NCBI GenBank assembly: GCA_028869255.1
Contig: CP110972.1
Location: forward strand, 2,733,001 to 2,797,000
DNA: 64,000 nucleotides
Direction of reading: 5' to 3'
Source: Pseudomonas poae
GTDB lineage: Bacteria > Pseudomonadota > Gammaproteobacteria > Pseudomonadales > Pseudomonadaceae
How positions within the stretch are numbered: the stretch's first letter is position 1; the number at the start of each line of letters is the position of its first letter. The notes beneath the pieces were generated by a model that was given only the letters and a program-made list of their open reading frames with translations, made no database searches and was not told the origin of the DNA. The translations under genes and the position numbers were made by a program. Below are positions 5,723 to 39,796 of the stretch, one piece after another.

Positions 5723-5883
5723 TTATTCGTTCTACATCCCTTTCATGGCGTGGCTCCTGACGAGTGCAACACTATCAACGGCACCAACAGCTCACCTATC
5801 AGACCTTTCTGAACAGCGCCAACAACCAGAAGCCAAGCGCCCGTTCAACAGCACCTGGCGCGAGTTCGATAACCAGCAGACCA

Positions 5884-5979
5884 AAATGTGGGAGGGGGCT
5901 TGCTCCCGATGGCGGCGTATCAGTCGACTTATTCAGAGACTGGCACACTGCGATCGGGAGCAAGCCCCCTCCCACATTT
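5884..5979. repeat. REPIN: two inverted REP copies (GGGAGGGGGCTTGCTCCC type)
   Basis: Two 27-base arms (5884-5910 and 5953-5979) are exact reverse complements separated by 42 bases. The core GGAGGGGGCTTGCTCCC is one of the common Pseudomonas fluorescens REP sequences. It lies between the toxin promoter region and the TOBE gene. Confidence 0.9.
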
Positions 5980-5989
5980 GCTAGCACAT

Positions 5990-6205
5990 TTACAGTTTGG
6001 CAATCGACACTTCGGTGGATTTCACAAAGGCAATCACTTCGCTGCCCACTTTCAATTCCAGGTCCCGCACCGAGCGGGTGGTGATCACCGACGTCACGAT
6101 GCCGGACGCGGTTTGCACGTCGATTTCGGACACCACTTCGCCCAGCAGAATTTCCTTGATCACGCCTTTGAACTGGTTGCGCACGTTGATCGCTTTAATA
6201 GTCAT
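5990..6205 (-). CDS. Molybdopterin-binding (Mop/TOBE domain) protein, SsuF-like
   Basis: A 71-residue protein that is a single TOBE/Mop domain (MTIKAINVRNQFKG at the start, LKVGSEVIAFVKSTEVSIAK at the end), the fold of molbindins that bind molybdate or similar oxyanions in the cytoplasm. The ATG at 6205 follows AAAGGAAAC, so the longer frame to 6259 is not needed. In P. putida a protein of this kind (SsuF) is encoded at the end of the ssu sulfonate operon; here it is divergent from a sulfonate-type ABC operon, which supports a link with organosulfur growth. Its exact role there is unknown. Confidence 0.85.
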   Translation of the reverse strand: MTIKAINVRNQFKGVIKEILLGEVVSEIDVQTASGIVTSVITTRSVRDLELKVGSEVIAFVKSTEVSIAKL

Positions 6206-6522
6206 GTCGGGTTTCCTTTTGGCTGTTGGGTCAATCCGCACGAATGCGCAGGCCCTCAAAATGCGCCATCAGCGAGAACATTAAAAGGAATATATAACTC
6301 TTTATTTATTCGATATAGATATATAAGAACTGTTGCCCAGCCAACAGTGGTTCAACAATCTGCTGCTTCCAGCAACAGCGTTAAACACCCTCCCCGCGTA
6401 AATCCGGCTCCTGGCCAGATGGCACAGAGACTGCATATTCCTATAAAGCATGATGAAACATGCCAACTCAGTTTTCTGAATATAAGAAAAGCCTTCTCTC
6501 AACGCCTTGCCGGAGCTGTTCC
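6206..6522. promoter_or_regulatory. Divergent promoter region between the TOBE gene and the ABC transporter operon
   Basis: A 317-base intergenic stretch with an AT-rich centre (about 6283-6330, TATATAACTCTTTATTTATTC and neighbours) unlike the flanking genes. No gene is evident. Both flanking units are of the kind controlled by sulfate starvation through CysB, so the AT-rich part is a plausible regulator and RNA polymerase site; no CysB consensus can be assigned by eye. Confidence 0.4.
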
Positions 6523-7479
6523 ATGAAACCCTTCACCCTACGCTTACTCGGCGCCTGCGCCCTCGCCCTGTGCCTACAGCCCCAGGCCTTTGCCGCCGAA
6601 ACCGATCCCGCCGAAGTCAACCTCGACTACGCCTACTATTCGCCCGTGAGCCTGGTACTCAAGCACTTCGGCTGGCTGGAACAGGCCCTGCCCCAGAGCA
6701 AGGTCGGTTGGGTGCTGAGCCAGGGCAGCAACCGCTCCCTGGAATACCTCAACAGCGGCGGCGTGGACTTCGCCTCCTCGGCGAGTTTGTCCGCCGTGTT
6801 GAGCCGCGCCAACGGCAGCCCGATCAAGTCGGTGTACGTCTACAGCCGCGCCGAATGGACCGCGCTGGTGGTGCGCAAAGACTCGCCTTACAAGAGCGTC
6901 TCCGACCTCAAAGGCAAAAAAATCGCCGCCACCAAAGGCACCGACCCGTACCTGTTCACCCTGCGCAGCCTGCAATTGGCCGGGCTGAAAAAGGACGATG
7001 TGGAACTGGTGCACCTGCAACACCCGGACGGCCGTACCGCGCTGGAAAAAGGTGATGTGGACGCTTGGGCCGGTCTCGACCCGCACATGGCGGCCAGCGA
7101 AATCCAGGCCGGCTCGCGCCTGTTGTACCGCAACAAGGACTTCAACAGCTACGGCGTGGTCAGCGTCACCGAGAAGTTCGCCAAGGAACACCCGCAAACC
7201 ATCACCAAGGTGCTCGGCGCCTATGAGAAAGCCCGCGACTGGGCGGTAAAACACCCGGACGAGTTTGCCAAGCTGCTCGCTGATGAATCTGGCTTGCCGC
7301 TGGAGGTGGCCAAGCTGCAATTGTCGCGTACCGACCTGAGCACGCCATTTCTCAGCAGCAAGGATGTGGCGTCGTCCAAGGCCGCCGCACCGATCCTGGT
7401 GTCCGAAGAACTGGTGCGCAAAGGTGTGAATGTGGACCAGGTGATCGACCAGTTGATCGACACCTCGTACGGCCACTAA
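6523..7479 (+). CDS. ABC transporter periplasmic substrate-binding protein, aliphatic sulfonate (SsuA) type
   Basis: A 318-residue exported binding protein. The start ATG at 6523 is preceded by GGAG at 8 bases. Residues 1-25 form a signal peptide (MKPFTLRLLGACALALCLQ, cleavage likely after AFA-AE). The mature part has the nitrate/sulfonate/taurine-binding fold: DYAYYSPVSLVLKHFGWLE near the N-terminus, SGGVDFASSASLSAV around 70-84, and DLKGKKIAATKGTDP. It is the first gene of a three-gene operon (binding protein, permease, ATPase). Family membership is firm, but the precise ligand (alkanesulfonate, sulfate ester or other) cannot be told; no SsuD or SsuE is adjacent. Confidence 0.85.
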   Translation: MKPFTLRLLGACALALCLQPQAFAAETDPAEVNLDYAYYSPVSLVLKHFGWLEQALPQSKVGWVLSQGSNRSLEYLNSGGVDFASSASLSAVLSRANGSPIKSVYVYSRAEWTALVVRKDSPYKSVSDLKGKKIAATKGTDPYLFTLRSLQLAGLKKDDVELVHLQHPDGRTALEKGDVDAWAGLDPHMAASEIQAGSRLLYRNKDFNSYGVVSVTEKFAKEHPQTITKVLGAYEKARDWAVKHPDEFAKLLADESGLPLEVAKLQLSRTDLSTPFLSSKDVASSKAAAPILVSEELVRKGVNVDQVIDQLIDTSYGH

Positions 7480-7489
7480 GGAGCGCGTG

Positions 7490-8317
7490 ATGACCAGCAA
7501 AACCCAAGCATTGCCCCTGGCCGCGCCGGCGGCGATCAACCGCAGTGCCTGGCCGAGGCGGCTCAAGGGCCTGGTGTTGCCGGTGCTGATCCTGCTGGTG
7601 TTGGAGGTGGTGGTGCGGGTGGGCTGGCTGCCGTCGTATCAGATGCCGGCGCCCAGCGAGATCGCCGTGACCCTTGCGGACCTGGCAGAAGGCGCCTTGT
7701 GGAAGCACATCAGCGCCAGCCTCGGCCGGGTGCTGCTGGGCTTTGCCATTGGTGCCAGCCTGGCGTTGGTGTTTGCCGCCTGGGTCGGCTTGAGCCGGGA
7801 AGCTGAAGCCTACCTGGAACCAACCTTCGCCGGGCTGCGCTCGATCCCAAGCCTGGCCTGGGTGCCGCTGTTGCTGCTGTGGCTGGGCATCGACGAGACC
7901 TCGAAAATCGCACTGATTGCAATTGGCGCGTTCTTCCCGGTGTACCTCAATGGCGTCGCGGCGATCCGCGATATCGACCGCAAGCTGGTGGAAGTCGGGC
8001 AAATGTACGGCTTCAGCCGACGGCGCCTGGTGCGGCGCATCCTGTTGCCCGCCGCCCTGCCCGGCCTGTTCACCGGCTTGCGCAGCGGCTTGAGCCTGGC
8101 GTGGATGTTTCTGGTGGCGGCCGAGCTGATCGCGGCCACCAAGGGTTTGGGTTACCTGCTCAGCGATGGGCGGGAAACCTCGCGGCCGGACATCGTGCTG
8201 GCGGCAATCATCGTACTGGCGCTGTTGGGCAAGGTCAGCGACGGCCTGCTGGCGGCGCTGGAGAAACGCTGCCTGGCCTGGCGTGACACCTTCAATGGCC
8301 AAGGTGGGGAGCAATGA
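7490..8317 (+). CDS. ABC transporter permease, SsuC/TauC type
   Basis: A 275-residue inner-membrane permease with about six transmembrane segments. The EAA loop is visible as VEVGQMYGFSRRRLVRRILL followed by PAALPGLFTGLRSGL, which contacts the ATPase. RBS AAGGAG (from 7480) is 7 bases before ATG 7490, so this ATG is preferred to the GTG at 7487. It lies 10 bases after the binding-protein gene and overlaps the ATPase gene by four bases (ATGA), showing one transcript and coupled translation. Confidence 0.88.
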   Translation: MTSKTQALPLAAPAAINRSAWPRRLKGLVLPVLILLVLEVVVRVGWLPSYQMPAPSEIAVTLADLAEGALWKHISASLGRVLLGFAIGASLALVFAAWVGLSREAEAYLEPTFAGLRSIPSLAWVPLLLLWLGIDETSKIALIAIGAFFPVYLNGVAAIRDIDRKLVEVGQMYGFSRRRLVRRILLPAALPGLFTGLRSGLSLAWMFLVAAELIAATKGLGYLLSDGRETSRPDIVLAAIIVLALLGKVSDGLLAALEKRCLAWRDTFNGQGGEQ

Positions 8318-9030
8318 GCATGCAGCCATTACTGGACATCCATGTGGTACGCAAAAGCTTCGCCAGCACCACCGTATTGAAAGACGTGCGCCTGGCCTTG
8401 CAACCACGCGAAGCCGTGAGCCTGCTGGGCCCCAGCGGTTGTGGCAAAAGCACCTTGCTGCGGATCGTCGCCGGGCTGGAAACGGACTTCCGGGGCGAAC
8501 TGCGCAGCCCCGACGGCGAGGTCGCGTTTGTGTTCCAGGAGCCTCGCTTGATGCCCTGGCTCACCGTGGAGCAGAACATCGGCTTCAGCGATGACAACCG
8601 CTACGACAAGGCCTGGGTCACGCAATTGATCGAGGAAGTCGGCCTCAAGGGCTTTGCCCAGGCATTGCCCAAAGCGCTGTCCGGTGGCATGGCGCAGCGC
8701 GTGGCCATCGCCCGTGGCCTGTATTCAAGGCCGCAGGTGTTGTTGCTGGATGAGCCGTTCAGCGCAGTGGATGCGTTTACCCGGATGAAGCTGCAGGATT
8801 TGCTGCTGCAACTGGCCGCGCACCATGCCATCGCCCTGCTGCTGGTCACCCATGATGTGGATGAAGCGCTGTACCTGAGTGATCGGGTGCTGGTGATGGA
8901 CAACCGGCCGAGCAGCATTCGCCAGGAGCTGGCGGTGGACTTGCCGCACCCAAGGGACCGCCGCGACCCGCTGCTGGCGCAGCTCAAGGCACTGTCCTTG
9001 ACTGAGCTGCAGCGGGCGCATGTGATCTAG
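8314..9030 (+). CDS. ABC transporter ATP-binding protein, SsuB/TauB type
   Basis: A 238-residue cytoplasmic ATPase powering the importer. Walker A GPSGCGKST (about 39-47), Q-loop FVFQEPRLMPW, signature LSGGMAQRVAIARG, Walker B VLLLDEPFSAVD and switch LLVTHDVDEAL are all intact. The EPRLMPW Q-loop segment is typical of the nitrate/sulfonate/taurine subfamily. Last gene of the operon; a REPIN follows after about 40 bases. Confidence 0.9.
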   Translation: MSMQPLLDIHVVRKSFASTTVLKDVRLALQPREAVSLLGPSGCGKSTLLRIVAGLETDFRGELRSPDGEVAFVFQEPRLMPWLTVEQNIGFSDDNRYDKAWVTQLIEEVGLKGFAQALPKALSGGMAQRVAIARGLYSRPQVLLLDEPFSAVDAFTRMKLQDLLLQLAAHHAIALLLVTHDVDEALYLSDRVLVMDNRPSSIRQELAVDLPHPRDRRDPLLAQLKALSLTELQRAHVI

Positions 9031-10724: not shown

Positions 10725-10767
10725 TTTAATATCGTGCCGGGACACCATGATCTTTTCAACGTCGCGT

Positions 10768-13474: not shown

Positions 13475-13795
13475 ATCCAGTCCTGGACAGGGCGTCAATT
13501 TGTGCACTACTGAAAGATGACGACAGGCTGCCCACCCAAGCTGTAACGCCGGTGAAACAGGCGCGAAGGCTTTATTTCACGCCCTCTGGAAAATCCGTCG
13601 GAATGCCTTGCTTGTTAAGGATTGCCAGCTATATCTACTGCTGTGTAGTAGCTAATAGCTGTTAACCATGACTCGATAGGCAGCGCTTTGGAAAAGTGCC
13701 GTGACAAGGAAGATCAGATCGCTGTCGTTCGCTCCGTCACCTCAATTCTCGCGCTGAGCGTCTGTTAACTCACTTGTCAGATTGAGGAGATGAGC
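13475..13795. other. Intergenic region upstream of the CHAT operon
   Basis: About 320 bases between the divergent regulator gene and the hydrolase gene. It is less GC-rich in the middle (about 13600-13670). No convincing gene is present. It must hold the promoters of both flanking units. GAGGAG at 13784-13789 is the Shine-Dalgarno of the hydrolase gene. Confidence 0.5.
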
Positions 13796-15115
13796 ATGCC
13801 AGCGATGATGCCCGTTGGACCGTTCAAGCACTGCGTCTCTGCCGAGGGCAAGACGTTTCCCTACTACATTGTGCCGTTTGACAAAGACGGCCAGTGCGAA
13901 GCGCCGCTGACGCGCGAGCATTTGCTGGACAACCTCGGTGGTCACAGCGACATCTTTTTCTTTTCTCATGGCTGGAACAACGACTGGGAAGTGGCCAGTG
14001 CCCGATACGCGGATTTTATCGACGGCTACATCCGCCAACGCAGCACCCTGGGGCTCAAGGTTGCGGATAAGTACAACCCGCTGCTGGTCGGCATCTTCTG
14101 GCCAAGCCAGGCCCTGGCCTGGTTTGACAACGAGACCGGGCCGCGCTTTGCCGGCTCCGTTGAAGAGGGCCGCAAGCAAGTGGCCGAAATTGCCCAGTCA
14201 CTGCCGCAGACAAAACGCGAGGCCTTTCTGACCTTGGCCCAGACGCCACGGCTTACACCACAACAGGCCGGTGAACTGGCGCAAATACTGGCGGATGCAC
14301 TCAAGGACCAGCAGGACGATGAGGGCCTGCAACGCAGTCCGCCCAGTGCACAGGACTTGCTCGTTTGCGCGATTGTCAGTGCAGAGCCGGAGCCTGACTA
14401 CGATAAGTTCGGTGCCGTGCGGGAAGCCCCGCAAACGCCGCCGACGCCGGCGGGCGTTATTGATGCCCTGAAGTCGCTTGACCCGCGCCAACTGATCAAA
14501 CCGTTCACGGTATGGCAAATGAAAGACCGCGCCGGCAAGGTGGGCAGCGCGGGCGTGTCGCGGTTGCTGGCAGATATCCTGACCACCAGTGCGAACGCCA
14601 AGGTGCATCTGCTGGGGCATTCCTATGGCTGCAAAGTGGTGATGTCCGCCACGGCTGCGCTGCCCGACGGTGTGCGCCCCATCCATTCGGCATTGCTGCT
14701 GCAGCCCGCCATCTCCCAATACGCCTTCGCTGCGAAAATCCCCGACAGTACGCTGCAAGGCGGTTACCGACCCAACCTTGCCCGCATCACCCGCCCGGTT
14801 GTAGCGACATTCAGCAGCCATGACAGCGCCTTGAGCCAAGCCTTCCACCTGGCACTACGTCGCGATCAGGACCTGGGCGAGCAGCCCTCGCCCGCCGGTT
14901 CACCGAGCAAGTACGGCGCATTGGGCGGCTTCGGCCCCCAGCCTGTGGAGGTGCAGCCGATCTACATCAAGGACCCGCTGGACCCGTATGACTTCGGTAA
15001 AGGTGGGCGTGTGCTGGGCATCCAGGGCAGCCGTACGATCAGCGGCCATGGCGATATCAGCAATCCGTCGACCTGGTGGCTGGCTTACAGCCTGACCTCG
15101 AGCAACGACGTGTGA
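13796..15115 (+). CDS. Alpha/beta hydrolase (lipase-like), first gene of the CHAT operon
   Basis: A 439-residue cytoplasmic protein (no signal peptide or TM). It has the oxyanion-hole segment FFFSHGWNND (His58) and the nucleophile elbow LLGHSYGCKV with Ser276. Asp in TFSSHDSALS and His in SGHGDISNPSTWW are plausible remaining triad members. A long acidic/polar insertion (about 130-235) separates the first half from the elbow. ATG 13796 is preferred to ATG 13790 because GAGGAG would abut the latter. It is followed after 15 bases by the CHAT genes, all on one strand. Its substrate, whether lipid, ester or peptide, is unknown; an effector role is an inference from context. Confidence 0.75.
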   Translation: MPAMMPVGPFKHCVSAEGKTFPYYIVPFDKDGQCEAPLTREHLLDNLGGHSDIFFFSHGWNNDWEVASARYADFIDGYIRQRSTLGLKVADKYNPLLVGIFWPSQALAWFDNETGPRFAGSVEEGRKQVAEIAQSLPQTKREAFLTLAQTPRLTPQQAGELAQILADALKDQQDDEGLQRSPPSAQDLLVCAIVSAEPEPDYDKFGAVREAPQTPPTPAGVIDALKSLDPRQLIKPFTVWQMKDRAGKVGSAGVSRLLADILTTSANAKVHLLGHSYGCKVVMSATAALPDGVRPIHSALLLQPAISQYAFAAKIPDSTLQGGYRPNLARITRPVVATFSSHDSALSQAFHLALRRDQDLGEQPSPAGSPSKYGALGGFGPQPVEVQPIYIKDPLDPYDFGKGGRVLGIQGSRTISGHGDISNPSTWWLAYSLTSSNDV

Positions 15116-15130
15116 GATGAGGGGTTTGTC

Positions 15131-16604
15131 ATGGCCGAGATGCTGAAACGCCAGAACGATATTGTGACCCTCAAGGTTGAGCTGAAGGCCAGGGGAGAAG
15201 TCATCTTTACACTGCAATGGCATGAAGATCATGCACTTTTAGGCGTCACGTTCTGGCAGGATAATCAGGCGTCGTTCGGTTTGTCGTCTGAATTCCCCGT
15301 CAAGCGGCCGGACGAGTCAAACCTGCATTTTCCTGCCGCGTTTATCGAGGCATTGCACGCACACTGGCACATCAATGGCATCGGACATCAGTGCTTGTGG
15401 GTGCCACCTGGTCCAACCCTGCGGCACGCTGAGTTTCCTGCCGTGGGAACAACTGCTCGTGGATCTCCAGATACCCGTATTGATGTTGCCCGATTTTATT
15501 TTCCCGCCGCCTCAGGAAAGTTTTGAGCAGCTGGATGTCGTTGTCTGTGGCAGTGCGCCGTTGCAGAGGGAAAAAATCGACGCCGGCAATGATCTGATCG
15601 ATACGCTGCAGGCCATCGCCAGCGGCGTTGATCGCCCACTGCGCCTGCACGTATTCACCGACACCGATCTGTCGCCGCTGCTCAACTCGATAGACTTGGG
15701 CTGCGAGGTGATCGCCTATTCGATTGACAGCACCCCATTGCTTACAGCCAACGGGATGACCTCAATCGGGCAACCTGGCAGAAGCCTGCAATCACCCTGG
15801 CTTGTGTGGATGCGGGATGCGCTCAAAACTTTCAGTGTCGACGCCGTACATTTCATATGCCACGGGCACTTGTCCGGTCTCCGAGGCTCGCTGCTCTTTG
15901 CGCAGTCACCAACGCAGCGTAGCGACGACTTCCTCGCAGGTTCTGTGGGGGCGGTCGAGCTGGCCAACTTTCTGATCCAGATTGGTGCCTGGGCCACTGC
16001 GTTCAGCGCGCCCACCGACAACCACAGTCTACTGGGACTGCGGGTACTGGCTGATGAAATTGCCCAGACATTGCCTGGACCGATGATGATGTTTGATCAC
16101 AACAAGGCGCCTTATGGGGTGCTGGAGGCAGGCTATCGCTTTGTGCATTCTCCCTATCCGCAACGCCCCCCTTACCATGAGGGCGGCTTGTATTTGTATT
16201 GCCAGCCCTATCTGCTCACCCGGTCCTTTCAGGCGCCGACCTACGCCCAGCGCAATCTGGAGCTACAGGATCTCGGCAGGCGCTACGCTCGAAATAGAGC
16301 ACAGATCAAAACCGTACTGAACACCTATGCGCTGAGTGACGATGTGCAGTCATCGCAACCACTGACCAGGAGCAAGCACTTATCAGCCGTAACCGCAGCA
16401 ACGGAACGCGCTGCCGAACAAATCCAATTGCATTATCAGAAACTGATACGCGATGAAGTAGTGCCTCAAAAAACAGCGTTGCGCGACTTATCGATCGCCA
16501 TGGAAACCATCCAGCAATTTCGCCAGGCGCTGGGCGAGGTCGAGCGAGAACGAGTGGGTGACGAGGCCGGTAATCCCCTTGCCGATAAGGGGGACGCGTC
16601 ATGA
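15131..16604 (+). pseudogene. CHAT-domain protein 1 (frameshifted; catalytic Cys position occupied by Pro)
   Basis: Two frames (15131-15526 and 15375-16604) join to a protein of about 490 residues if one C is removed near 15403-15405, giving a continuous LWVHLVQPCGTLSFLPWEQL. FLPWEQLLVDLQIPV is the conserved start of a CHAT (caspase-like) domain. His of the dyad is present in VHFICHGHLSG. At the strand that normally ends in the catalytic Cys (SAC in most CHAT proteins) the sequence is ATAFSAPTDN, so Pro replaces Cys. The domain is therefore probably an inactive pseudo-protease, perhaps a regulator or partner of the next gene. The C-terminal 120 residues are helical. RBS GATGAGGGG precedes ATG 15131. 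Confidence 0.7.
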
Positions 16605-17968
16605 TCTACCCACGCACCGTACTGACCATTGATGCCTGGGGCGACACCCTCTACGCCCAAGTCATGCACAGTTCCCTTCCGCTAACCGGCCAATTCCCAC
16701 CCTGCCCTTTAAATCTGCCAGAGCATGTACCAGGGTTTGCCCAGCAAAACGCCGTGCTGGACCGAGGTGTCATGGTGAGAACAGCATTACGCGCACATCA
16801 AGGCATTTGTCAGGTGCTGGATGGCATCAAAGGCACGGCCGCGCATGAAATACGACCGCTGTTCATGTTACTGGATGGCGAGTTTTCCCAGCGAATCAAT
16901 TGGGAAATGCTCTGCGACACCAGCAGTGCTTTCGTTGCCCTCGACCGGCGCTCACCCATTGGGCGCATAGTCAAGCAGACCAACCCCAACCCACTGCCTC
17001 CCAGTGAACTGGAGGTGCCGGTGAGGTTGATGGTAGTCATTTCGGCATTGGGTATTGGCGACCAGAAAAATGAGTGGAAAGCCCTGCGTGATGCGGTCAT
17101 TCAAGCCAGGAAAAACGGTCTGGCGATCAGCGTAAAGGTTCTGGTGGGGCTCGAGAGCCTGTACGACAGCATCGAAGTCGAAATAGCTGGCGGCCTTGAC
17201 GATGTGGAGCTTGGATCGATCGCTTCGAGTTCCAGCGACCTGACGCAGGCCATCAGTAACTGGGCGCCGCATATCCTGCATTTTTTTTGCCACGGCTTCA
17301 GTGACAGCAACGGCCAACAACTGGAACTGGCAACCACCGCAGACCACGCGCTGCATGATACCAACCCTCATGCGTTATCCCATGGTTCGGTGACCGTCAC
17401 CGGGCTCAACTTGAGAGACTTGGGCTATACGCTGAAGAACACTTGGCTGGTGGTACTCAACTGTTGCTCAATCGGCAACGCGACCTCGACCTTGCCCTCC
17501 ATGGCTGCACAAGTGTGCACTGCCGGAATACCTGCGGTTGTCGCAATGATGGAGCCCGTCACCTCGGCGGACGCCTATCGGTTCACCAAGGCACTCTACC
17601 CAGGTGCACTGGCATTGATCCTGGATGCATGGACCGATCTCAAGGCCCACGCCAGCACCACACTGGAGTTGACGACTGTCATGTACTCCGTGCGCAACGC
17701 CATCGCTCAAGGTCTTAAAAGCAACCCGCAAAGCTCACCGCATTGGTCGCTGCCGGTGCTGTATGTACGCAGTATCGACCCCCAACTGTTCGTACGACCT
17801 GCTGGCGGCGACAACCATGTCCGCCTCAAGACAACCGCCCAGTTGTTGACTGCCACAGCGGCAAAAATGAACGCCGAGCAAGCCAACGAAATACTCAAGA
17901 AAATGCTCGGCGACATCCCCGAGGACCAATGGCCAACCGCCGAAGGAGACTTCCACCATGGCGATTAA
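16601..17968 (+). CDS. CHAT-domain (caspase-like) protease, intact His-Cys dyad
   Basis: A 455-residue protein, start overlapping the previous stop (ATGA). An N-terminal alpha/beta region contains DGEFSQRINWEMLCD (about 92-106), the INWE motif being usual at the start of CHAT domains. His231 in LHFFCHGFSD and Cys289 in WLVVLNCCSIGNA form the expected caspase-fold dyad. GIPAVVAMMEPVTSADAYRF matches the following CHAT helix. CHAT proteases such as separase relatives, the bacterial gasdermin activators and the Craspase Csx29 cut a partner protein upon a trigger. Here the likely partners are encoded in the same operon. Family is firm; substrate and trigger are unknown. Confidence 0.82.
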   Translation: MIYPRTVLTIDAWGDTLYAQVMHSSLPLTGQFPPCPLNLPEHVPGFAQQNAVLDRGVMVRTALRAHQGICQVLDGIKGTAAHEIRPLFMLLDGEFSQRINWEMLCDTSSAFVALDRRSPIGRIVKQTNPNPLPPSELEVPVRLMVVISALGIGDQKNEWKALRDAVIQARKNGLAISVKVLVGLESLYDSIEVEIAGGLDDVELGSIASSSSDLTQAISNWAPHILHFFCHGFSDSNGQQLELATTADHALHDTNPHALSHGSVTVTGLNLRDLGYTLKNTWLVVLNCCSIGNATSTLPSMAAQVCTAGIPAVVAMMEPVTSADAYRFTKALYPGALALILDAWTDLKAHASTTLELTTVMYSVRNAIAQGLKSNPQSSPHWSLPVLYVRSIDPQLFVRPAGGDNHVRLKTTAQLLTATAAKMNAEQANEILKKMLGDIPEDQWPTAEGDFHHGD

Positions 17969-19349
17969 CCCCTTCCACCTGTCAAGTAATGCCTGGTGCG
18001 GAAACACAACGGCCAGCGGAGACATATCCCTGGCCAGCACTTGGTCATTATTAGTGAGTGTCGAGTCTGAAGACATGCATGCACTGGTGGGCCATGTCCC
18101 TCCGGCTGCCAACCTCGAAGACTGGCGAGACCCGGCAATCGGTTGGGGCCTTGTGTTACCTGACTGCAACGGTAGGACCGACGCGGATAAAGCCCAGGCG
18201 GTTGATGCCCCAGAATGCGTGCGGACGCTGCTCAAAGAACGCGGGAATGCACCGGTATTCCGCTATCGTCCAGAGCTGGCCATGGGGGGAAGGCTTCGAC
18301 GGTATTTTCCCGATAAAGGCCCGGTAGACCCCCATCTCGCCGGAGAACGCGGTATCGGCGACTACAGAATCCCCCGTTACCTGCTGATCATCGGTTCTCC
18401 CACTGACATTCCGTGGAGTTTTCAATACCGCTTGCAGACCGACGCCTTTGTAGGCCGCCTGGACCTGGATGAGACGGGCCTGAAAAACTACATCAACGCC
18501 CTACTGGAAAACTGGTCTGGCAGCACGCGTGATTTCGACACGCCAGTTATCTGGGCAGTCAACCATGGCACCAGGGATATCAGCCATCTGATGGCTAATA
18601 CCATCGCCAAACGCGTGTCTGAAACGCTTTCAGGCTATGGGTTCACCCCATCGTTTCTGACGGGGCAAGAAGCGCGTTTGCACAATTTCTACCAGGCATT
18701 GCATGCGCAACAACCGGCCTTCGTGCTGACCACCAGCCATGGCGCCACGTTTCCGTTGGATTCACCCACCCAGCTTGCGGCGCAATTGGGCCTGATGGTC
18801 GACCTTGACGAAAGCCTGCTTAATGTAGAAACGCTGCAACAGTTCTGGAACCCCAGTGGGGCGATCTGGTACGCCCATGCCTGTTGCTCTGCAGGCGCAG
18901 ACAAACCCTCGGAATTCCAGGGTTTGGTCGACCGGGAGTCGTCGCTGGGCAACATGTTGCACAAGGTCGCCAGTATCGGCCCCTGCACCGCCCCATTACC
19001 CCGCCAACTGCTGGGCGCCGAACACCCGCTGGGCGCATTCGTTGGCCATGTCGAACCTACCTTCGACTGGACGTTAAGGGATCCTGACACGGGGCAGGTG
19101 ATGGTCCAGCAGATGATCGTCAATCCGTTGACCCGGTGCCTGCATAGCGCAGCGCGTCAACCAATAGGCATGGCGATCGAGGGCTACTATACGGCGGTGG
19201 CAGGTTACCTGTTGGAGCACTCCAATAGTTTGATCGACTACAACGATCGCGTACCCGATGCCAAAACCAGGATGATCAAAGCCAAACTCCTGGCCATGGA
19301 CCGTCTCGCCATGGTGACCCTCGGCGACCCAACCGTGTGCCTGCCGTAG
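17958..19349 (+). CDS. Caspase/gingipain-like (clan CD) cysteine peptidase-like protein, last gene of the CHAT operon
   Basis: A 463-residue protein with AAGGAG before ATG 17958, overlapping the previous gene by 11 bases. It lacks a clear CHAT start motif, but has a caspase-like order: a beta strand ending in YLLIIGSPTDIPW, a strand with VLTTSHGATF (His261), and IWYAHACCSAG (Cys309/Cys310). This His-then-Cys arrangement is that of clan CD peptidases, with resemblance to C25 (gingipain-type) domains. The family cannot be named with certainty. It ends five bases before the convergent channel gene. Confidence 0.6.
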   Translation: MAINPFHLSSNAWCGNTTASGDISLASTWSLLVSVESEDMHALVGHVPPAANLEDWRDPAIGWGLVLPDCNGRTDADKAQAVDAPECVRTLLKERGNAPVFRYRPELAMGGRLRRYFPDKGPVDPHLAGERGIGDYRIPRYLLIIGSPTDIPWSFQYRLQTDAFVGRLDLDETGLKNYINALLENWSGSTRDFDTPVIWAVNHGTRDISHLMANTIAKRVSETLSGYGFTPSFLTGQEARLHNFYQALHAQQPAFVLTTSHGATFPLDSPTQLAAQLGLMVDLDESLLNVETLQQFWNPSGAIWYAHACCSAGADKPSEFQGLVDRESSLGNMLHKVASIGPCTAPLPRQLLGAEHPLGAFVGHVEPTFDWTLRDPDTGQVMVQQMIVNPLTRCLHSAARQPIGMAIEGYYTAVAGYLLEHSNSLIDYNDRVPDAKTRMIKAKLLAMDRLAMVTLGDPTVCLP

Positions 19350-19353
19350 CCCG

Positions 19354-20799
19354 TCACAGCCCGCGCTTGCGCAGCCACTGCAGAAAGCCCTTCTTGACCG
19401 GCACCACTGGTGCGTCCTGGGTCAGGGCCTGCGCGGCGTGCAGGCGGAAATCCAGCAGGGTTTTCATGGCTTCGCTGATGTCGTGCCGCGCATCCAGGCA
19501 CGGCTTCAGATATTCCTTCTCGATGCGGTACAGCGTACAAAAGGTCTTGGCGGAAAAATCCGCCAGCGTCGCCTCATCCGACAAGATCCCCGCCTCGCCG
19601 ATCACCTCACCCGGCCCCATGCGCCCGGCTTCGAACTTATGCCCGCCCTTGGTCAGCATCACCGAGACCACGCCCGACTCGACGATAAACAAGTGGTCGC
19701 TGACCTCCCCCGCCGGCAGGATCATCTCGCCGGCGCGATAGGTGTGCAGGGTCATGTTCTGGCTGAAGGTGTCTTTCTCTTCCTGGCGCAGGGTGGAGAA
19801 AATCGACGAACGCTCCAGCAACGCCCGTGCGGCGGACATGGCAGGCGGCGCGCCGCTTTCGGTGGCCGACAGCAAACCCACGCCCGCCGCCTGCAAGTGG
19901 CGGAATGCGAGGTCGTACAGCTGGTTACGCACCTCGCGCTTGAGGGGCATGGCGGGCACAAACCCGCTGATTTCATACTCCACCCCGCCACTGGCCGAGG
20001 TTTTGAACGCGACGCTGGGCGCCGGCTTGGCCAGCAGCGGGCGGCAACCCTGCATCGCCCGCTCCAGCGCCTCGATCACGGTTTGCGGGCGCGCATGGGG
20101 GCTGACCTGCACGCTGACCGCCAGGCCGAACATATCCGCCGGGCGCGAGAAGTTGATGATCTTGGCCTTGGCCGCAAGGGAATTGGGAATCACCGCCATG
20201 CTGCCCTGGGAGGTTTGCAGGCGAGTGGCGCGCCAGTCGATGTCCGTGACCCGGCCTTCGGTGCCGTCGATGGAGATCCAGTCGTCCAGTTGATACGGCT
20301 TGGTGGTATTGAGCACGATCCCGGAAAATACATCGCTCAGGGTGCTTTGCAGCGCCAGGCCGACGATGATCGCCACCGCGCCGGAGGTGGCCAGCACGCC
20401 CTTGACCGGCAGGTCGAGCACGTAGGCCATGGCGGCGATGATCGCGATCAGGAAAATCACCGCGCCCATCAAGTCCTGCAACAGCCGCCCGGTGTGGCCG
20501 ACCCGCTGCATCATCAACGCGCCGAGCAATACCGTGAGGGTACGCGCAGCGAACAGCCACCAGCCGATCTGCAAGGCCGTGGCGGCCATGTGCAAGGCGG
20601 TGTTGTCGGCATACGGCGCGAGCTGCATGGGGTTCATGCCGTCGTTGAACAGCACGGCACTGAACACCGCAAAGATCACCAAGCGCGCCGCGAGCTTCCA
20701 GTTGGCAAGGTTGGCGGAAATAAGACGCCACACGGCGATGTCGATAAAGATCAGCGCCAAGGCGCACAGCATCGGGTGATCAGCGATAAATGAGGGCAT
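19354..20799 (-). CDS. MscS-family channel with C-terminal cyclic-nucleotide-binding domain
   Basis: A 481-residue inner-membrane protein. Four or so TM segments in residues 1-150 precede the MscS pore/beta domain: SGAVAIIVGLALQSTLSDVF, then LDDWISIDGTEGRVTDIDWR. Residues about 340-450 form a cNMP-binding fold (YRAGEMILPAGEVSDHLFIV, GPGEVIGEAGILSDEATLAD). The phosphate-binding arginine usual after GE..L in cAMP/cGMP sites is not obvious here (DEATLADFSAKT), so the ligand is uncertain. Members of this architecture are cNMP-gated relatives of mechanosensitive channels. ATG 20799 follows GGAG at 8 bases; the longer open frame upstream runs through a REPIN and is not coding. Confidence 0.85.
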   Translation of the reverse strand: MPSFIADHPMLCALALIFIDIAVWRLISANLANWKLAARLVIFAVFSAVLFNDGMNPMQLAPYADNTALHMAATALQIGWWLFAARTLTVLLGALMMQRVGHTGRLLQDLMGAVIFLIAIIAAMAYVLDLPVKGVLATSGAVAIIVGLALQSTLSDVFSGIVLNTTKPYQLDDWISIDGTEGRVTDIDWRATRLQTSQGSMAVIPNSLAAKAKIINFSRPADMFGLAVSVQVSPHARPQTVIEALERAMQGCRPLLAKPAPSVAFKTSASGGVEYEISGFVPAMPLKREVRNQLYDLAFRHLQAAGVGLLSATESGAPPAMSAARALLERSSIFSTLRQEEKDTFSQNMTLHTYRAGEMILPAGEVSDHLFIVESGVVSVMLTKGGHKFEAGRMGPGEVIGEAGILSDEATLADFSAKTFCTLYRIEKEYLKPCLDARHDISEAMKTLLDFRLHAAQALTQDAPVVPVKKGFLQWLRKRGL

Positions 20800-20860
20800 C
20801 CAGGCGACTCCAGGGCGAATGACCGGAAGATCGCATGAAATGGGCACGCTGGAAACAAAA

Positions 20861-20947
20861 TGTGGGAGCTGGCTTGCCGGCGATGCAGACGCCTCGGTGT
20901 ATTGGTTACACCGCGCCGATGCTATCGCAGGCAAGCCAGCTCCCGCA
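20861..20947. repeat. REPIN (TGTGGGAGCTGGCTTGCC type)
   Basis: Left arm TGTGGGAGCTGGCTTGCCGG (20861-20880, extending to 20884) and right arm 20924-20947 are near-perfect reverse complements, one mismatch in each arm region. It lies between the channel and pirin genes. Confidence 0.88.
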
Positions 20948-20965
20948 GGGTTTTGCGGCGAGTCG

Positions 20966-21831
20966 TCAGGCGTGCATTTGCCCGAACTGCCCCGAGTGGA
21001 AGTCGGCAAATGCCTGATGGATTTCCTGCTCGGTGTTCATCACAAACGGACCATGGCCGACGATGGGCTCATCGATCGGTTCGCCGCTGAGCAGCAGCAC
21101 CTTGGCGTCGTCGCTGGCCTCCAGGGTCAGTTGCTCGCCATCGCGCTCGAACAGCGCCAGTTGGCCTGGGCGCGCCACTTCTTCGCCGTTGACCCGCACC
21201 GTGCCACGCAGGATCACCAGCGCGGTATTGCGACCCGCGCGCAGGTCCAGCGTCACCGGGTTGCCGGCATTAAGGCGCAGGTCCCACACGTCAATCGGCG
21301 TAAAGGTGCGTGCAGGCCCACGGGTACCGGCGAACTCACCGGCGATAAGCCGCAGGTGCCCGGCATCGTTGGCCAATGGCAGCACAGGGATATCGTCGTC
21401 GACGATCGTCTGGTAGCCCGCTTCGGCCATTTTGTCCTTGGCCGGCAGGTTGACCCACAGTTGCACCATTTCCATCACCCCGCCGTTGCGGGCGAAAGCT
21501 TCGGAATGGAACTCTTCGTGGATGATGCCCTTGGCTGCGGTCATCCATTGCACGTCGCCGGGGCCGATCTTGCCGCCCGCGCCGGTGGAGTCGCGGTGTT
21601 CGACTTCGCCGTCGTACACAATCGTCACGGTTTCAAAGCCGCGATGCGGGTGCTGGCCGACGCCGCGGCGTTGCTCGGTGGGGGTGAAATCCGCTGGGCC
21701 CGCGTGGTCCAGCAGCAAGAATGGGCTGATGTGCTTGCCCATCGAGTCGTAGGAAAACAGCGTGCGCACCGGAAGCCGTCGCCAACCCAATGGGCGCGGG
21801 GGCTGGTGTAAATGCCGATGAGTTTTTTCAT
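20966..21831 (-). pseudogene. Pirin family protein, apparently frameshifted near its start
   Basis: Pirins are bicupin metalloproteins, some with quercetinase activity. HPHRGFETVTIVYDGEVEHR and DVQWMTAAKGIIHEEF are the conserved N-cupin metal-binding segments. The correct start is ATG 21831 with a strong GGAGG; it reads MKKLIGIYTSPRAHWVGDGF, then loses frame near 21771 (TTCCGG where TTCCCGG is expected). The continuing frame gives PVRTLFSYDSMGKHISPFL to the end at 20966. One added C gives a normal protein of about 288 residues. The alternative start of the long frame lacks the family N-terminus. Confidence 0.8.
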
Positions 21832-31656: not shown

Positions 31657-34600
31657 GTGCGAGGGATTGCAGATGGCGTTATTTGTAGGGGCCAAGTCTT
31701 GAACCCGGCCATTGGCAGGCTGGCCCTGACCCCAATGGACGTAGACACGGTCGACGTTGAAGGCGTCTTCCGTGATTTCCGAGAGTGCCTGAACACCTTT
31801 GACGCGTGGGCGGAAAGCTTCTGGCGCTTTTCGGCGCTGGAAGTTGAGCAGGTGTTCAAGGTGGGGGATGAGGTGGCGCTGGTCGCGCCTGTCTCTGCCA
31901 AAAAGCCCAGTAGCACCGTGGCGGTGTGCAAAGCCCAGGGCTCGCTGACCCTGGTGCATATGTTCGAAAGCACGCAGTTCGTGCCGATCGGCAACACGCC
32001 GGTGATGTTGCAAGCCATTGCAGCGGATGGCAGCCCACAGGGTGCGCCGATCCATCACACCATCGGCCCCAGCGGCATTCTTGAAGTCACGGAATGCACC
32101 CGCGACCAGCAGTACCAAGTCACCTTCTATCCCACTGTTTCCAAGGATCACGTCAAGGCGCTGTACGCGTCTTATCAGTCAGTGATTTCTGACGTGGAAG
32201 CGCGCCTGCGCCAGGAGTGGACCAATAGCTTCAAAGACCAGTGGAAAGACTACACCGACGCTACCCCGCTTGATCGTCGCAGAGTGCTGGAAACGGCGTT
32301 TCTCAGCGGCATGGGCAAGGCGCTTTACAACCTGTGGGACAACCTTGCGCAGCTGTATGAGCTGCTGGCGGACATCAAGCCCAACAGCGAGAAGTTGCTG
32401 CAATACATCTCCCAAACCGAACTTGATGAGCTGCTGAAGCTGGGCAACGACAAGATAGCTCACGGCTTGCTGATGCTCAGCGATGAACCGTTGTTGTTTA
32501 TCTATGTGTCGGCGGTGGTCAGCTGGATACGGTTGCTGCCGCCGCCACAGATGAATGAGCTGATGGGGGAAATCACCGGCGAAGTATTGATCAATCTGCT
32601 GCTGATTTGGGCGACGGCAGGTATGGGGGTGGCGGTGCGCCTGGGTACTCAGGTGCTGGACCATAACAAATCCGGACGTGCGCGGGACCTGCTCGAGATG
32701 CTGGCCAAACAGCTTGCAGGGCCTGGGTTGGAGCCGCATGTGACGGCGGTTAAACCCTTACTGCTCGGCAGTGCGGCCACACCGATCAAAGCAGTGTCGA
32801 TGACGCCGTTGAAGGCTGGGGAGCAGTTGGTTTCGAACCCGGTGCCGGCGGTTCGCAGCAAGACGCAGCAGACAGTGCTGGTTCGCCAGGAGCTGGTCGA
32901 CGATGTGCCGGCTTCGGGTAAAAACCTCAACGGGGATGCGGCGGCGGCGGCGGATAAGACGGCCACCAACGGCTGCCCGGTGTCGATGGTCACCGGCGAA
33001 GAATTGCTGACCCTGACCGATGGGACGCTGGACGGGATTTTTCCGTTTGAGTGGACACGGTTGTATCGCACCAGTGCGGTGGACGTGGATTGTGGGTTGG
33101 GGTTTGGGTGGAGTCATTCGCTGGCGCAGCGGCTTTCTGTCGTGGGCGATTCGGTGGTGTGGGTCGACCACGAAAACCGTAGTACTCAGTTTCCTCTACC
33201 AACTGCCTCCCGACCGGCGATCACCAATAGCTTGGCTGAAGCCGCGATTTACCTGGGCTCGTTGCCAGATGAGCTGGTGCTGGCCCAGGCCTCACGTTTC
33301 TATCATTTTCGCGATGGCGTGCTGGTCTCGATCAGCGATGCGTATGACAACCGGCTGCGAATTTCCCGAGATTATTCGGGGCGGATTTCGCGGCTGGATA
33401 ACGGCGTGGGGCGCTCGCTGTTCCTGCGTTATGAGTCTGGCCGCATCGTGGCGGTGGACTACCAGATCCAGCGCGCCAAGGGCCGCGAACCTTTCGAATG
33501 GGTGACCGAGTTTTGCATTGTTTCCTACGCCTATGACGAACTTGGCCGACTGGTCTCAGCGACCAATGCCGTCGGCGAAAGCGAGGTTTACCGGTACGAC
33601 GAGCAGCACGTCATTTTGGAACGTGGACTGGCCGGTGGCGCGAGCTTCTTCTGGGAGTGGGAACGCTCTGGCAAAGCGGCGCGTTGTGTCCGGCACTGGG
33701 CCAGCTTTTCGCAGATGGACACGCGTTATGCCTGGGACGACAACGGCCGCGTCACGGTTTTTAACGCCGATGGCAGCCAGGAAGTGTATGTCCACGATGA
33801 TCGGGCGCGGCTGGTGCAGCGCATTGATCCTGACGGCGCCGAGCATTTCAAATCCTACGACGATAAAGGCCGGCTGACGGTCGAGCAGGACCCTCTGGGG
33901 GCGGTGACGGCGTATCAGTACGACGACGCCGGACGCTTGGTGGCGTTGTTTCCGGGGGATGACGAGCCGACTTCCTACGAGCATGACAATGGTTTCGTAC
34001 GGGTGGTGCGGCGCGGTGAGGCGGTTTGGAAGTATGAGCGGAACGACCAAGGCGACGTCATCCGCAAGACCGATCCTGAAGGCCACGTCACCGATTACAG
34101 CTACGACAAATATGGGCAACTGATTGGGGTTTGGTACCCGGATCACAGCTGTCTGCGGCTAGTGTGGAATGAGCGGGGGCAACTGCTTGAGGAACACTTG
34201 CCGAACGGCGGGATCAAGCGTTATCGCTATGACGATCTTGGGCGGCAGATAGCGCGTGAGGAGGCGCATGGGGCGCTGACCGAGTATCAGTGGGACAGCG
34301 TGGGCCGGCTGACTCGCGTGGTGCTACCCGGTGGGGCAACGCGGGAATACAGCTACAACCCTTACGGAAAAATCACCGCCGAACGTGACGAGCTGGGGCA
34401 GACCACTCGCTACGAATATGCCGACGGCCTGCACCTGATCAGCCGTCGCATCAATGCCGACGGCACCCAGGTCCAATACCGTTACGACAACGTGCGGTTA
34501 TTGCTGACTGAAATCGAAAACGAAGTCGGCGAAACGTATGGGTTGCAGTACCACCCCAATGGCCTGATCCAGCAGGAGACCGGGTTTGACGGCCAGCGTA

Positions 34601-36393
34601 CGGCGTATGCCTACGACCTCAACGGCAACCTGCTGGAAAAGACCGAATTTGGCGACGATGGCAGTCAGCTAGTCACCCGTTACGAGCGCGATCCTGCCGG
34701 CCGACTCGTACGAAAAACCCTGCCCGATGGCAGTCTTGTGGACTATGCCTACGACCGCCAGGGCAATCTCCTCAGCGTCGACGACGGCCACTGGGCGCTG
34801 GCCTACGAGTACGACGCGCAAAACCGCCTCACCGCCGAGCATCAAGGCTGGGGCACCCTGCGCTACGGCTACGACGCCTGCGGCCAGCTGAAAAACTTGC
34901 GCCTGCCTGACAACAACCGCCTGGTGTTCAATCACGGTAAGGGTGGGCACCTATCGACCGTGGAACTGAATGGCGCCGTACTGACCTCGCACCTGTTCAA
35001 CGCCGGCCAGGAACACCAACGCCAACAAGGCCAGCTCCTCAGCCACTACCACTACGACGACCAGCAGCGCCTGCACGCCCACGCCGTCACCCAACAGCAA
35101 CACACCCTCTACCAACGCCAATACGACTACGACAACACCGGCAACCTCACCCGTCTGCTCGACACCCGCAAAGGCGAACACCACTACCACTACGACCCCC
35201 TCGCCCGCCTGACCCGCGCCGACCACTCGCAAGACGTCCAGGAACGCTTCGCCCACGACCCGGCCGGCAACCTGCTGATGCAAGACCGACCCGGCCCCGA
35301 CATCGTCGCGGGTAATCGTCTGATGATCCAGGGCGACCGGCAGTACGACTACGACGCCTTCGGCAACCTGATCCGCGAACGACGTGGCAAGGGCCATCAA
35401 CTCGTTACCGAGTATCGCTACGACAGCCAACACCGGCTGATCGGAGTCACCCAACCCAATGGCCAAACCGCCAGCTATCGCTATGACCCGTTTGGGCGGC
35501 GCATCAGCAAAACCGTGGATGGCAAAACCAGCGAGTTTTTCTGGCAAGGCGACAAGCTGATTGCCGAGCACCATGCGCAGAGCCATCGCAGTTATATCTA
35601 CGAGCCGGATAGCTTCCGCCCACTGGCACTCCTAGAAGGCTACGGCCCAAAGGAAACCAAACCCTACCACTACCAACTCGACCACCTCGGCACGCCCCAG
35701 GAACTCACCACTCCCGACGGCGAAATCGTCTGGTCCGCGCACTACCGCGCCTACGGCGAAATCACCCGCCTCGACGTGGGCAAAGTCGACAACCCGCTAC
35801 GCTTTCAGGGCCAGTACTTCGACCCGGAAAGCGGGCTGCACTACAACCGCCATCGATACTACAATCCGGATATTGGTCGCTATCTCACGCCGGACCCGGT
35901 GAAGCTGGCGGGTGGGATTAACGCGTACCAGTACGTACCTAACCCTACAGGGTGGGTGGATCCTCTGGGGTTGAGTTCTTGCCCAGGCGTTGAAGGATGT
36001 AAGCCAACAACTGGACTCGCAAACCCGATTGGGAATGCAAGGATTGATGAGCGACAGCCAGTACTACCACAACCGTCGCGAGAACAGCGAAGGGAACGAA
36101 TAGAGGAACTAAGCGAAGCAAATGCCAAACGGCGCGTTCTGGAATACGAGGAAAAGTACGATATGCATATGGTCGGCAAGCACGGCCCAGAAGTAGAGGA
36201 CATGAAAATGAGGCAGCGCTCAATTGATGGACGGGACCCAATAACAGGCAACACCCCTAAAAACAAAAGGGAGTGCCAAGCTCTAAATTTAATAGTTGGA
36301 AATTTCAACTTCAGGCATGGACAAAGGCGACATCAAGGGTTGAAAGGGGGTTGCCGAGCTACACGGGCATTGATGAAAAAAAGAACGATATAG
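31657..36393 (+). CDS. Rhs-repeat polymorphic toxin, with probable shifts near both ends
   Basis: A 1578-codon frame. Residues about 1-430 are an Rhs N-terminal region with two hydrophobic patches (LFIYVSAVVSWIRLL, INLLLIWATAGMGVAV); CPVSMVTGEELLTLTDG starts a DUF6531-type segment, and from about 460 to 1410 there are many YD repeats (YRYDDLGRQIAREE, YDYDAFGNLIRERR). The core ends with the standard motif RYLTPDPVKLAGGINAYQ...DPLGL. After DPLGL comes a linker (RERIEELSEANAKRR) and the toxin. The listed GTG start has no Shine-Dalgarno; ATG 31673 has GAGGG but reads MALFVGAKS then stops, so one base may be missing near 31690-31702. At the 3' end the toxin shifts frame near 36265-36273. No PAAR or VgrG is seen. 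Confidence 0.85.
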   Translation: MRGIADGVICRGQVLNPAIGRLALTPMDVDTVDVEGVFRDFRECLNTFDAWAESFWRFSALEVEQVFKVGDEVALVAPVSAKKPSSTVAVCKAQGSLTLVHMFESTQFVPIGNTPVMLQAIAADGSPQGAPIHHTIGPSGILEVTECTRDQQYQVTFYPTVSKDHVKALYASYQSVISDVEARLRQEWTNSFKDQWKDYTDATPLDRRRVLETAFLSGMGKALYNLWDNLAQLYELLADIKPNSEKLLQYISQTELDELLKLGNDKIAHGLLMLSDEPLLFIYVSAVVSWIRLLPPPQMNELMGEITGEVLINLLLIWATAGMGVAVRLGTQVLDHNKSGRARDLLEMLAKQLAGPGLEPHVTAVKPLLLGSAATPIKAVSMTPLKAGEQLVSNPVPAVRSKTQQTVLVRQELVDDVPASGKNLNGDAAAAADKTATNGCPVSMVTGEELLTLTDGTLDGIFPFEWTRLYRTSAVDVDCGLGFGWSHSLAQRLSVVGDSVVWVDHENRSTQFPLPTASRPAITNSLAEAAIYLGSLPDELVLAQASRFYHFRDGVLVSISDAYDNRLRISRDYSGRISRLDNGVGRSLFLRYESGRIVAVDYQIQRAKGREPFEWVTEFCIVSYAYDELGRLVSATNAVGESEVYRYDEQHVILERGLAGGASFFWEWERSGKAARCVRHWASFSQMDTRYAWDDNGRVTVFNADGSQEVYVHDDRARLVQRIDPDGAEHFKSYDDKGRLTVEQDPLGAVTAYQYDDAGRLVALFPGDDEPTSYEHDNGFVRVVRRGEAVWKYERNDQGDVIRKTDPEGHVTDYSYDKYGQLIGVWYPDHSCLRLVWNERGQLLEEHLPNGGIKRYRYDDLGRQIAREEAHGALTEYQWDSVGRLTRVVLPGGATREYSYNPYGKITAERDELGQTTRYEYADGLHLISRRINADGTQVQYRYDNVRLLLTEIENEVGETYGLQYHPNGLIQQETGFDGQRTAYAYDLNGNLLEKTEFGDDGSQLVTRYERDPAGRLVRKTLPDGSLVDYAYDRQGNLLSVDDGHWALAYEYDAQNRLTAEHQGWGTLRYGYDACGQLKNLRLPDNNRLVFNHGKGGHLSTVELNGAVLTSHLFNAGQEHQRQQGQLLSHYHYDDQQRLHAHAVTQQQHTLYQRQYDYDNTGNLTRLLDTRKGEHHYHYDPLARLTRADHSQDVQERFAHDPAGNLLMQDRPGPDIVAGNRLMIQGDRQYDYDAFGNLIRERRGKGHQLVTEYRYDSQHRLIGVTQPNGQTASYRYDPFGRRISKTVDGKTSEFFWQGDKLIAEHHAQSHRSYIYEPDSFRPLALLEGYGPKETKPYHYQLDHLGTPQELTTPDGEIVWSAHYRAYGEITRLDVGKVDNPLRFQGQYFDPESGLHYNRHRYYNPDIGRYLTPDPVKLAGGINAYQYVPNPTGWVDPLGLSSCPGVEGCKPTTGLANPIGNARIDERQPVLPQPSREQRRERIEELSEANAKRRVLEYEEKYDMHMVGKHGPEVEDMKMRQRSIDGRDPITGNTPKNKRECQALNLIVGNFNFRHGQRRHQGLKGGCRATRALMKKRTI

Positions 36394-36545
36394 TACGCTT
36401 AGAACTACCAGGAGCCGGCCGCGGCTACAGACCCAACAAACATGACAAAAACAACCCGACTCTTAATGAATCCATGAGCGGCGCAGAAATGAAATTCCGT
36501 GAAGATGGCACACCCTTCACCTTATTTCCGACAAAGGAAAGATAG
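36273..36545 (+). pseudogene. Toxin A: remainder of the Rhs C-terminal toxin in the shifted frame
   Basis: This frame continues the Rhs toxin: VPSSKFNSWKFQLQAW, then KATSRVERGLPSYTG, IVRLELPGAGRGYRPN and LNESMSGAEMKF. The same order of motifs recurs in toxin A' (38555-38957): PSSQFKTWKMQMAVI, EATSREIRKMAPFTG, IVRIELQGCGRGYTPN, LNENMNGAVVKF. The comparison shows that the real toxin runs from DPLGL of the Rhs core to 36545 with one base missing near AAAAGGGAGTGCC (36265-36276). Toxin activity is not recognised. The stop TAG abuts the start of immunity gene A. Confidence 0.7.
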
Positions 36546-36965
36546 ATGTTATTCCATCCCTCTTCCGAACATATACCTTTTGACGCCAGCCTATACTACT
36601 TCGTAGGTATCTTTGACATCTACGATAGAGAAGAAACCAAAGGTGTGGAACTATCACATTATGACCCTAACAATAAAAATGACAGAGAGCGCCTCATAAT
36701 CAAGTACTGCCTGGACCCTTACGAAAAGCTTTCGTACAGGCACAGATACAAATTAATGAAAAACCTGTCTTTTGCACTTAGCGACGAAAGTTTCGACTTT
36801 CAATCGTATTTTAAAGACGATCCAGATGAATATTCAACTATGGCCTGGGACGAAACAGAAATAGCCGATCCCCGAGGTTTTTTCGCCGACATCTATCGTC
36901 TAGCCAACGAGGTTTGGAAAGACGACCTCCAAAAAGCCAGCCTCGAAGATCAATCAACGTGGTAA
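36546..36965 (+). CDS. Immunity A: putative immunity protein for the Rhs toxin
   Basis: A 139-residue acidic protein directly after the toxin stop, RBS AAAGGAAAG. It shares the framework YF.G.FDIYDRE, DDP..., PR.FF..IY.LA and the end KASLEDQSTW with immunity A' at 38957 (HEASLEDQSTW). Immunity genes of polymorphic toxins lie immediately downstream of the toxin, and both copies do. I do not recognise the family. GC content is clearly lower than in the Rhs core, as usual for exchangeable toxin/immunity tips. Confidence 0.75.
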   Translation: MLFHPSSEHIPFDASLYYFVGIFDIYDREETKGVELSHYDPNNKNDRERLIIKYCLDPYEKLSYRHRYKLMKNLSFALSDESFDFQSYFKDDPDEYSTMAWDETEIADPRGFFADIYRLANEVWKDDLQKASLEDQSTW

Positions 36966-37028
36966 GGCCGCCATTTACCACACTGACAACTGAGCAAATC
37001 CCTTTTTATCTTGAGACAGAAAGCATGA

Positions 37029-37905: not shown

Positions 37906-37959
37906 GCCATAGAAGCATTAGTACTTTCAAAAAACGCTAGGTCAACGCCGCCGAGTTTA

Positions 37960-37976
37960 GGGCTGCTGTGCAGCCC
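37960..37976. terminator. Short perfect hairpin after immunity B
   Basis: GGGCTGC (37960-37966) and GCAGCCC (37970-37976) pair around a TGT loop, in a 187-base gap without other genes. There is no T-run; it may be a terminator or the remnant of a REP-type repeat. Confidence 0.4.
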
Positions 37977-39789: not shown

Positions 39790-39796
39790 CTAAAAA

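Follow-up and report, generated by a model that had tools for sequence, protein, structure and literature searches.

A 64,000-nt window of the Pseudomonas poae genome (contig CP110972.1, positions 2,733,001 to 2,797,000 of the forward strand), part of the one-contig genome G000, carries four genes encoding an alpha/beta-hydrolase, two CHAT-type proteins (CHAT1 and CHAT2) and a C25/gingipain-like cysteine peptidase (C25), which we read, with a probability of roughly 0.6, as an immune or cell-death cassette that is self-contained and has spread horizontally, its CHAT proteins acting upstream of the hydrolase-C25 pair. The genes lie on the plus strand in the order DUF900-like hydrolase (13796–15115), CHAT1, an apparent pseudo-CHAT protein that is frameshifted here (15131–16604), CHAT2, an active-looking CHAT protease (16601–17968), and C25 (17958–19349), preceded by a region that travels with the cassette (13542–13795). 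The tight packing described in the first-pass annotation was confirmed at each junction, with a 15-nt gap between hydrolase and CHAT1 (stop 15115, start 15131), a 4-nt overlap between CHAT1 and CHAT2 (stop 16604, start 16601) and an 11-nt overlap between CHAT2 and C25 (17968 vs 17958). The hydrolase has a second in-frame ATG at 13790. A simple scan found no sigma-70 consensus promoter at the locus, and no RNA family was found there.

The gene order proved to be conserved in other genomes, as the first-pass annotation had required of its proposal. The C25 alignment served for a pattern scan of a collection of genomes from 84,980 species, which would miss relatives lacking the two motifs used and gave 52 loci; the addition of six of eight plasmid records, the window, L062/L087 and L088 brought these to 61, of which 59 were assessable after removal of L011 and L058, both cut by contig ends, and arrangements were sorted by hand. 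Hydrolase, CHAT1, CHAT2 and C25 occurred in the same order and on the same strand in 39 of the 59 loci, covering four phyla, which is more than chance would give. The other loci comprised ten with hydrolase and C25 but no CHAT pair between them (with a gap of about 1.1 kb in L019), five with CHAT1-CHAT2-C25 and no hydrolase, three with C25 beside VMAP-type genes (L035, L059 and L088) and two with other arrangements (L007 and L051). One gene was split by a stop or frame change in L013, L053 and L057. Counting only positions between the hydrolase and C25 or immediately preceding C25, CHAT1 and CHAT2 were both present in 44 loci and both missing from 15; other CHAT proteins near C25 that were matched by the CHAT2 profile (L005, L006, L007, L033, L048, L051 and L087) were not counted as the pair. 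Taking the start codon nearest the previous stop, which biases towards short gaps, the three junctions in order were within 30 nt in 36, 35 and 32 of the 39 four-gene loci and exactly −4 nt in 3, 20 and 16. Distance matrices of the four families were correlated over 38 loci (r 0.67–0.88, a value that none of 999 permutations reached for any of the six pairs), a correlation that may partly reflect shared species history. In two closely related Bradyrhizobium loci, L040 (6067–7113) and L056 (6068–7114), a papain-like gene takes the hydrolase position before CHAT1-CHAT2-C25, the L040 product matching Peptidase_C1 (6e-11) and that of L056 being near-identical.

The residues named in the first-pass annotation, Ser276 (in GHSYG), His231/Cys289 and His261/Cys309, are all present in the translations. 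CHAT2 matched Pfam CHAT (PF12770) at 46.4 bits (cut-off 24; E 4.8e-12), and the His and the Cys of its dyad (His231/Cys289) were each kept in 47 of 47 rows, which makes it an active-looking member of the family; its match to PADLOC SAVED_CHAT (25.7 bits) covered only model positions 131–269 of 498. The third His-Cys protein, C25, has a gingipain fold with a His-Cys dyad, in which Cys309 is the likelier nucleophile, being C in 60 of 62 rows as against 54 of 62 at Cys310. Pfam PF01364 (Peptidase C25) did not match the window protein and matched its distant L087 relative at 1.5e-8; the C25 profile found no convincing match among PDB sequences and gave a probability of only 2 against the CHAT2 profile. 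The hydrolase matched Pfam DUF900 (25.8 bits, cut-off 20.5), with the nucleophile position of GHSYG at Ser276, and its presumed triad Ser276-Asp343-His418 was kept in all 48 alignment rows. Between its WPS and MKxR motifs lies a less conserved insert of about 137 aa (126–160 residues in 47 rows).

CHAT1 is related to CHAT2 by profile match (E 1.1e-10), and the intact homologue from P. kairouanensis (L008) has a CHAT/separase-type caspase fold. The first-pass expectation of a caspase fold was thus upheld for CHAT1 and C25, both in the caspase clan, and for CHAT2 as a Pfam CHAT protein. No match to CHAT1 below E 0.001 came from Foldseek by itself, and the CHAT1 profile found none that was convincing among PDB sequences. 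The catalytic pair is not kept in CHAT1: the Cys column holds C in 1 of 44 rows and P in 28, and the His column holds H in 17 of 44. The suggestion that one CHAT protein is a pseudo-protease accordingly has strong sequence support, with CHAT1 appearing as a dead paralogue of CHAT2.

In the window CHAT1 is also not the single intact gene it had been taken for. It is split over two frames (ORFs 15131–15526 and 15375–16604; ORF, open reading frame), and homology to the unbroken P. kairouanensis protein places the frame switch between 15390 and 15403; unbroken copies are present in other loci. The break is either a genuine inactivating frameshift or a sequencing error. It counts towards a decaying locus and a cassette that is dead in this genome, a reading independent of the others, to which we give a little under even odds, since the other three genes are intact with all catalytic residues and a single-site frame change may be an error. 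A real frameshift would leave two options, a silent locus or a CHAT1 that acts more as sensor than as brake.

The distribution of the cassette points to horizontal spread. The homology between P. kairouanensis and the window extends over 13542–19345 (74% by BLASTN over 5851 columns), outside which the 12.1-kb P. kairouanensis stretch matches the window only by a short repeat, suggesting that the cassette moves as a block. Relatives of C25 were sparse, occurring in 3 of 249 genomes of the genus (this one, one that shares its exact C25 with P. kairouanensis, and L062, distant and differently arranged), in 2 of 398 of a phylum sample (this one and G462, of VMAP type) and in 1 of 385 of the class of G462 (G462 itself). 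This sparse presence argues against a housekeeping role, which the first-pass annotation had listed as fatal to its proposal and which was rejected on these grounds.

Further indications come from loci in which the hydrolase-C25 core has other partners. At 971–9413 of L087, from another genome of the genus, a CHAT-SIR2 fusion, an nSTAND1-WD40 protein, the hydrolase and C25 are closely packed on one strand. In L005, on a Nostoc plasmid, hydrolase and C25 are followed by nSTAND1-WD40 and CHAT-nSTAND1 proteins, and in L007, on a Planktothrix plasmid, CHAT-nSTAND1 and WD40 genes lie upstream of C25. Hydrolase and C25 are fused into one 941-aa ORF in L048 (Candidatus Viridilinea halotolerans, 5774–8596), adjoining a WD40 protein that begins with a P-loop; genes for a CHAT-VMAP-C protein, a TPR-CHAT protein and a MoxR-like ATPase, the last a homologue of the one in L059, lie beside it on the opposite strand. 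C25 precedes a C14-VMAP-C protein and a MoxR-like ATPase in L059, and L035 combines C25, an LCAT-type hydrolase, a VMAP-C protein and a MoxR-like ATPase, an arrangement shared by eye with L088. Since other CHAT or caspase proteins with nucleoside triphosphatases (NTPases) replace the CHAT pair in such loci and C25 and a hydrolase remain, these two are best placed at the effector end. Independently of the window, the L087 array is a candidate immune operon in its own right.

Two other accounts of the cassette were weighed. In the first, the CHAT pair and C25 would carry out non-immune regulated proteolysis of a cellular regulator, peptide or surface protein, the hydrolase being a co-regulated esterase and CHAT1 a scaffold for signalling, comparable to the part of the anti-sigma factor DdvA that matches it. 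We consider this improbable: the presence of the cassette is sparse and spans several phyla, its core recurs with SIR2/nSTAND1 and VMAP-C genes, and among up to four ORFs of at least 100 aa per side no neighbour family occurred in more than three loci including a four-gene locus, so that neither a substrate nor a sigma factor travels with it. The family that recurred in three loci did so within Lysobacteraceae (L010, L011 and L013), the idea of a conserved fifth gene was discarded, and neighbours of four-gene loci were varied, with many metabolic ones among the 25 of 87 Pfam families listed. In the second and still less probable account, hydrolase and C25 are the entire effector, and CHAT1-CHAT2 is an optional insert or a second independent effector instead of a trigger; the ten loci without the pair do not group together in the C25 tree and three of its four deep outgroup rows carry hydrolase-C25, but the pair is kept in 44 loci, five loci retain it with C25 and no hydrolase, and other CHAT proteins stand near the core in L005, L006 and L087 as well, although these are outgroup loci. 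In that tree (59 rows, supported by SH-aLRT, the Shimodaira-Hasegawa-like approximate likelihood ratio test, only) the hydrolase-C25 form requires seven changes, at least five of them forced by well-supported branches, and its scatter indicates that the CHAT pair has been lost or gained repeatedly.

Several observations weigh against an immune or cell-death cassette commanded by its CHAT proteins. The nSTAND1 and VMAP links come from few loci, none with the four-gene form, and L035 and L088, both VMAP-type, have beside C25 a hydrolase of another type (LCAT) than the window's. The ten loci with hydrolase and C25 alone make the CHAT pair not obligatory, and a real frameshift would mean that loss of CHAT1 is tolerated and CHAT1 is unlikely to be the sole brake. 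The relative G017 (L085:5260–12293) has about 7 kb of metabolic genes in the slot corresponding to window 13501–19351, between the same YheO-like regulator and MscS-cNMP channel, which makes this a variable slot. PADLOC matches (1e-5) were few among neighbours of 38 four-gene loci (window excluded; up to two ORFs of 130–1200 aa per side, 136 in all, with 115 smaller and 10 of 21 larger ones covered): one of the 10 large and no more than six of the 115 smaller ORFs, as raw counts with no background from mechanical calls of which some are surely spurious. The suggested enrichment in defence islands was thus not seen. No relative was found in the viral contigs searched. The first-pass idea of a proteolysis or cell-death system is consequently favoured by the CHAT/nSTAND1/WD40 and VMAP-C/MoxR associations, which speak for immunity or cell death, and weakened by their small number and their absence from four-gene loci.

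With these reservations, the immune or cell-death cassette remains our preferred reading, and the co-occurrence in one operon of a live CHAT protein, its dead paralogue, a gingipain-like protease and an esterase suggests a division into sensor/initiator, executioner and effector. CHAT1 and CHAT2 may form a heterodimer in which CHAT1 would sense a trigger and restrain CHAT2. Once triggered, CHAT2 would serve as initiator protease and would activate C25, the putative executioner, or the hydrolase directly, by cutting an inhibitory region, plausibly the hydrolase's own insert between the WPS and MKxR motifs. The freed hydrolase could then attack an essential ester, most likely in a membrane lipid, so that the infected cell would be halted or killed. 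The exact order CHAT2, C25, hydrolase is tentative and rather more doubtful than not, and a lipid substrate is a slightly better guess that still falls short of even chances. In its boldest form, unlikely as a whole, the proposal is an NTPase-free initiator-executioner cascade in which a pseudo-CHAT/CHAT heterodimer senses infection, fires a gingipain-like executioner and unlocks a membrane-dissolving lipase, and the hydrolase-gingipain pair is an exchangeable module for killing that STAND and VMAP immune platforms also use.

Comparison with described systems shows partial likenesses. A caspase-superfamily peptidase is paired with an alpha/beta-hydrolase in VMAP ternary systems, and the main text of Kaur et al. 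2020 (PMC7159879) reports that an alpha/beta-hydrolase gene is always found next to those VMAP systems that carry a caspase; C25 relatives adjoin VMAP-C and MoxR-like genes in L035, L059, L048 and L088 (the last by eye). The four-gene cassette differs in having two stand-alone CHAT proteins with C25 and no adjoining VMAP or MoxR gene. The ordered VMAP, MoxR and vWA genes of a ternary system were not found in the window, where the scanned neighbours (PALP, RidA, YheO-like, MscS-cNMP and others) included neither VMAP nor MoxR, and no such neighbour recurred; the two third-position proteins scanned (L048 and L059) had no vWA match. The terms C25 and gingipain are absent from the main texts of PMC7159879 and PMC8195603, as is CHAT from that of the former, while nSTAND1 is named in the latter. 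L087 and L005, where CHAT proteins accompany hydrolase and C25, recall CHAT-nSTAND1(-WD40) and CHAT-SIR2 loci, from which the window cassette differs in lacking any NTPase or beta-propeller sensor. Activation of effectors by proteases is well established in immunity (PMC12799240, on canu and protease-nuclease pairs). Canu combines a MALT1-like caspase with a metallo-beta-lactamase (MBL)-fold nuclease; the protease switches on the proenzyme beside it, and the two can be carried together from one platform to another. If our model is right, the present pair would resemble it in both respects, but with CHAT/C25 and an alpha/beta-hydrolase in place of caspase and nuclease, and none of the four proteins matched an MBL-fold nuclease or a C14/MALT1-like Pfam family.

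CHAT protease-gasdermin pairs also occur in bacteria, and the cassette resembles them in placing a CHAT protease beside a presumed membrane-damaging effector; it differs in that its effector would be an enzyme and not a pore and in its additional pseudo-CHAT and gingipain-like proteins, and no gasdermin match was found among its proteins. In fungi, TPR-CHAT activates a gasdermin according to the relevant passages of PMC12881547. Unlike Craspase/Csx29 and SAVED-CHAT, the cassette matched no TPR, SAVED or CRISPR component, CHAT2 showing CHAT only. Among the four proteins EACC1 is likewise not represented, with 19.7 bits against the NF047832 cut-off of 140 and no segment that looked transmembrane in a simple hydropathy scan. 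The first-pass statement that no named system combines these proteins holds for the full cassette, of which no description was found among the best-ranked titles and abstract starts of open-licence PMC records, and fails for the caspase/alpha-beta-hydrolase pairing, known for VMAP from the main text of PMC7159879. The four-gene cassette is probably undescribed, and CHAT/caspase-triggered effector systems are already known.

As to its surroundings, window positions 10755 and 19361 are only 77 bases apart in the relative G004, which thus has neither the cassette nor the PALP-RidA-YheO block. With metabolic genes in the slot of G017 and part of the flank missing from G004, a defence hotspot was rejected. 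A phage-borne origin was also set aside, no C25 relative being found in the viral contigs searched; a phage record gave one weak partial CHAT2 match. Directly downstream, residues 16–64 of ORF 19354–21009 (window about 20817–20964) match at least four other places in the genome, each with a stop, so that the gene itself may begin only downstream of an intergenic element that is repeated. Farther on, at 31657–40000, a gene that by eye resembles an Rhs-repeat polymorphic toxin comes before an AT-rich stretch holding a pair of similar small ORFs (36546–36965 and 38957–39373) and tip-like fragments, comparable to toxin/immunity arrays.

If confirmed, the model would add to bacterial immunity a two-tier protease cascade with an enzymatic effector. 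It would also provide a natural example in which an active protease has a dead paralogue as its partner, on the principle of pseudo-caspases such as cFLIP, and would suggest a gingipain-like partner for the reported caspase/alpha-beta-hydrolase pairing, in a four-gene unit compact enough for one plasmid.
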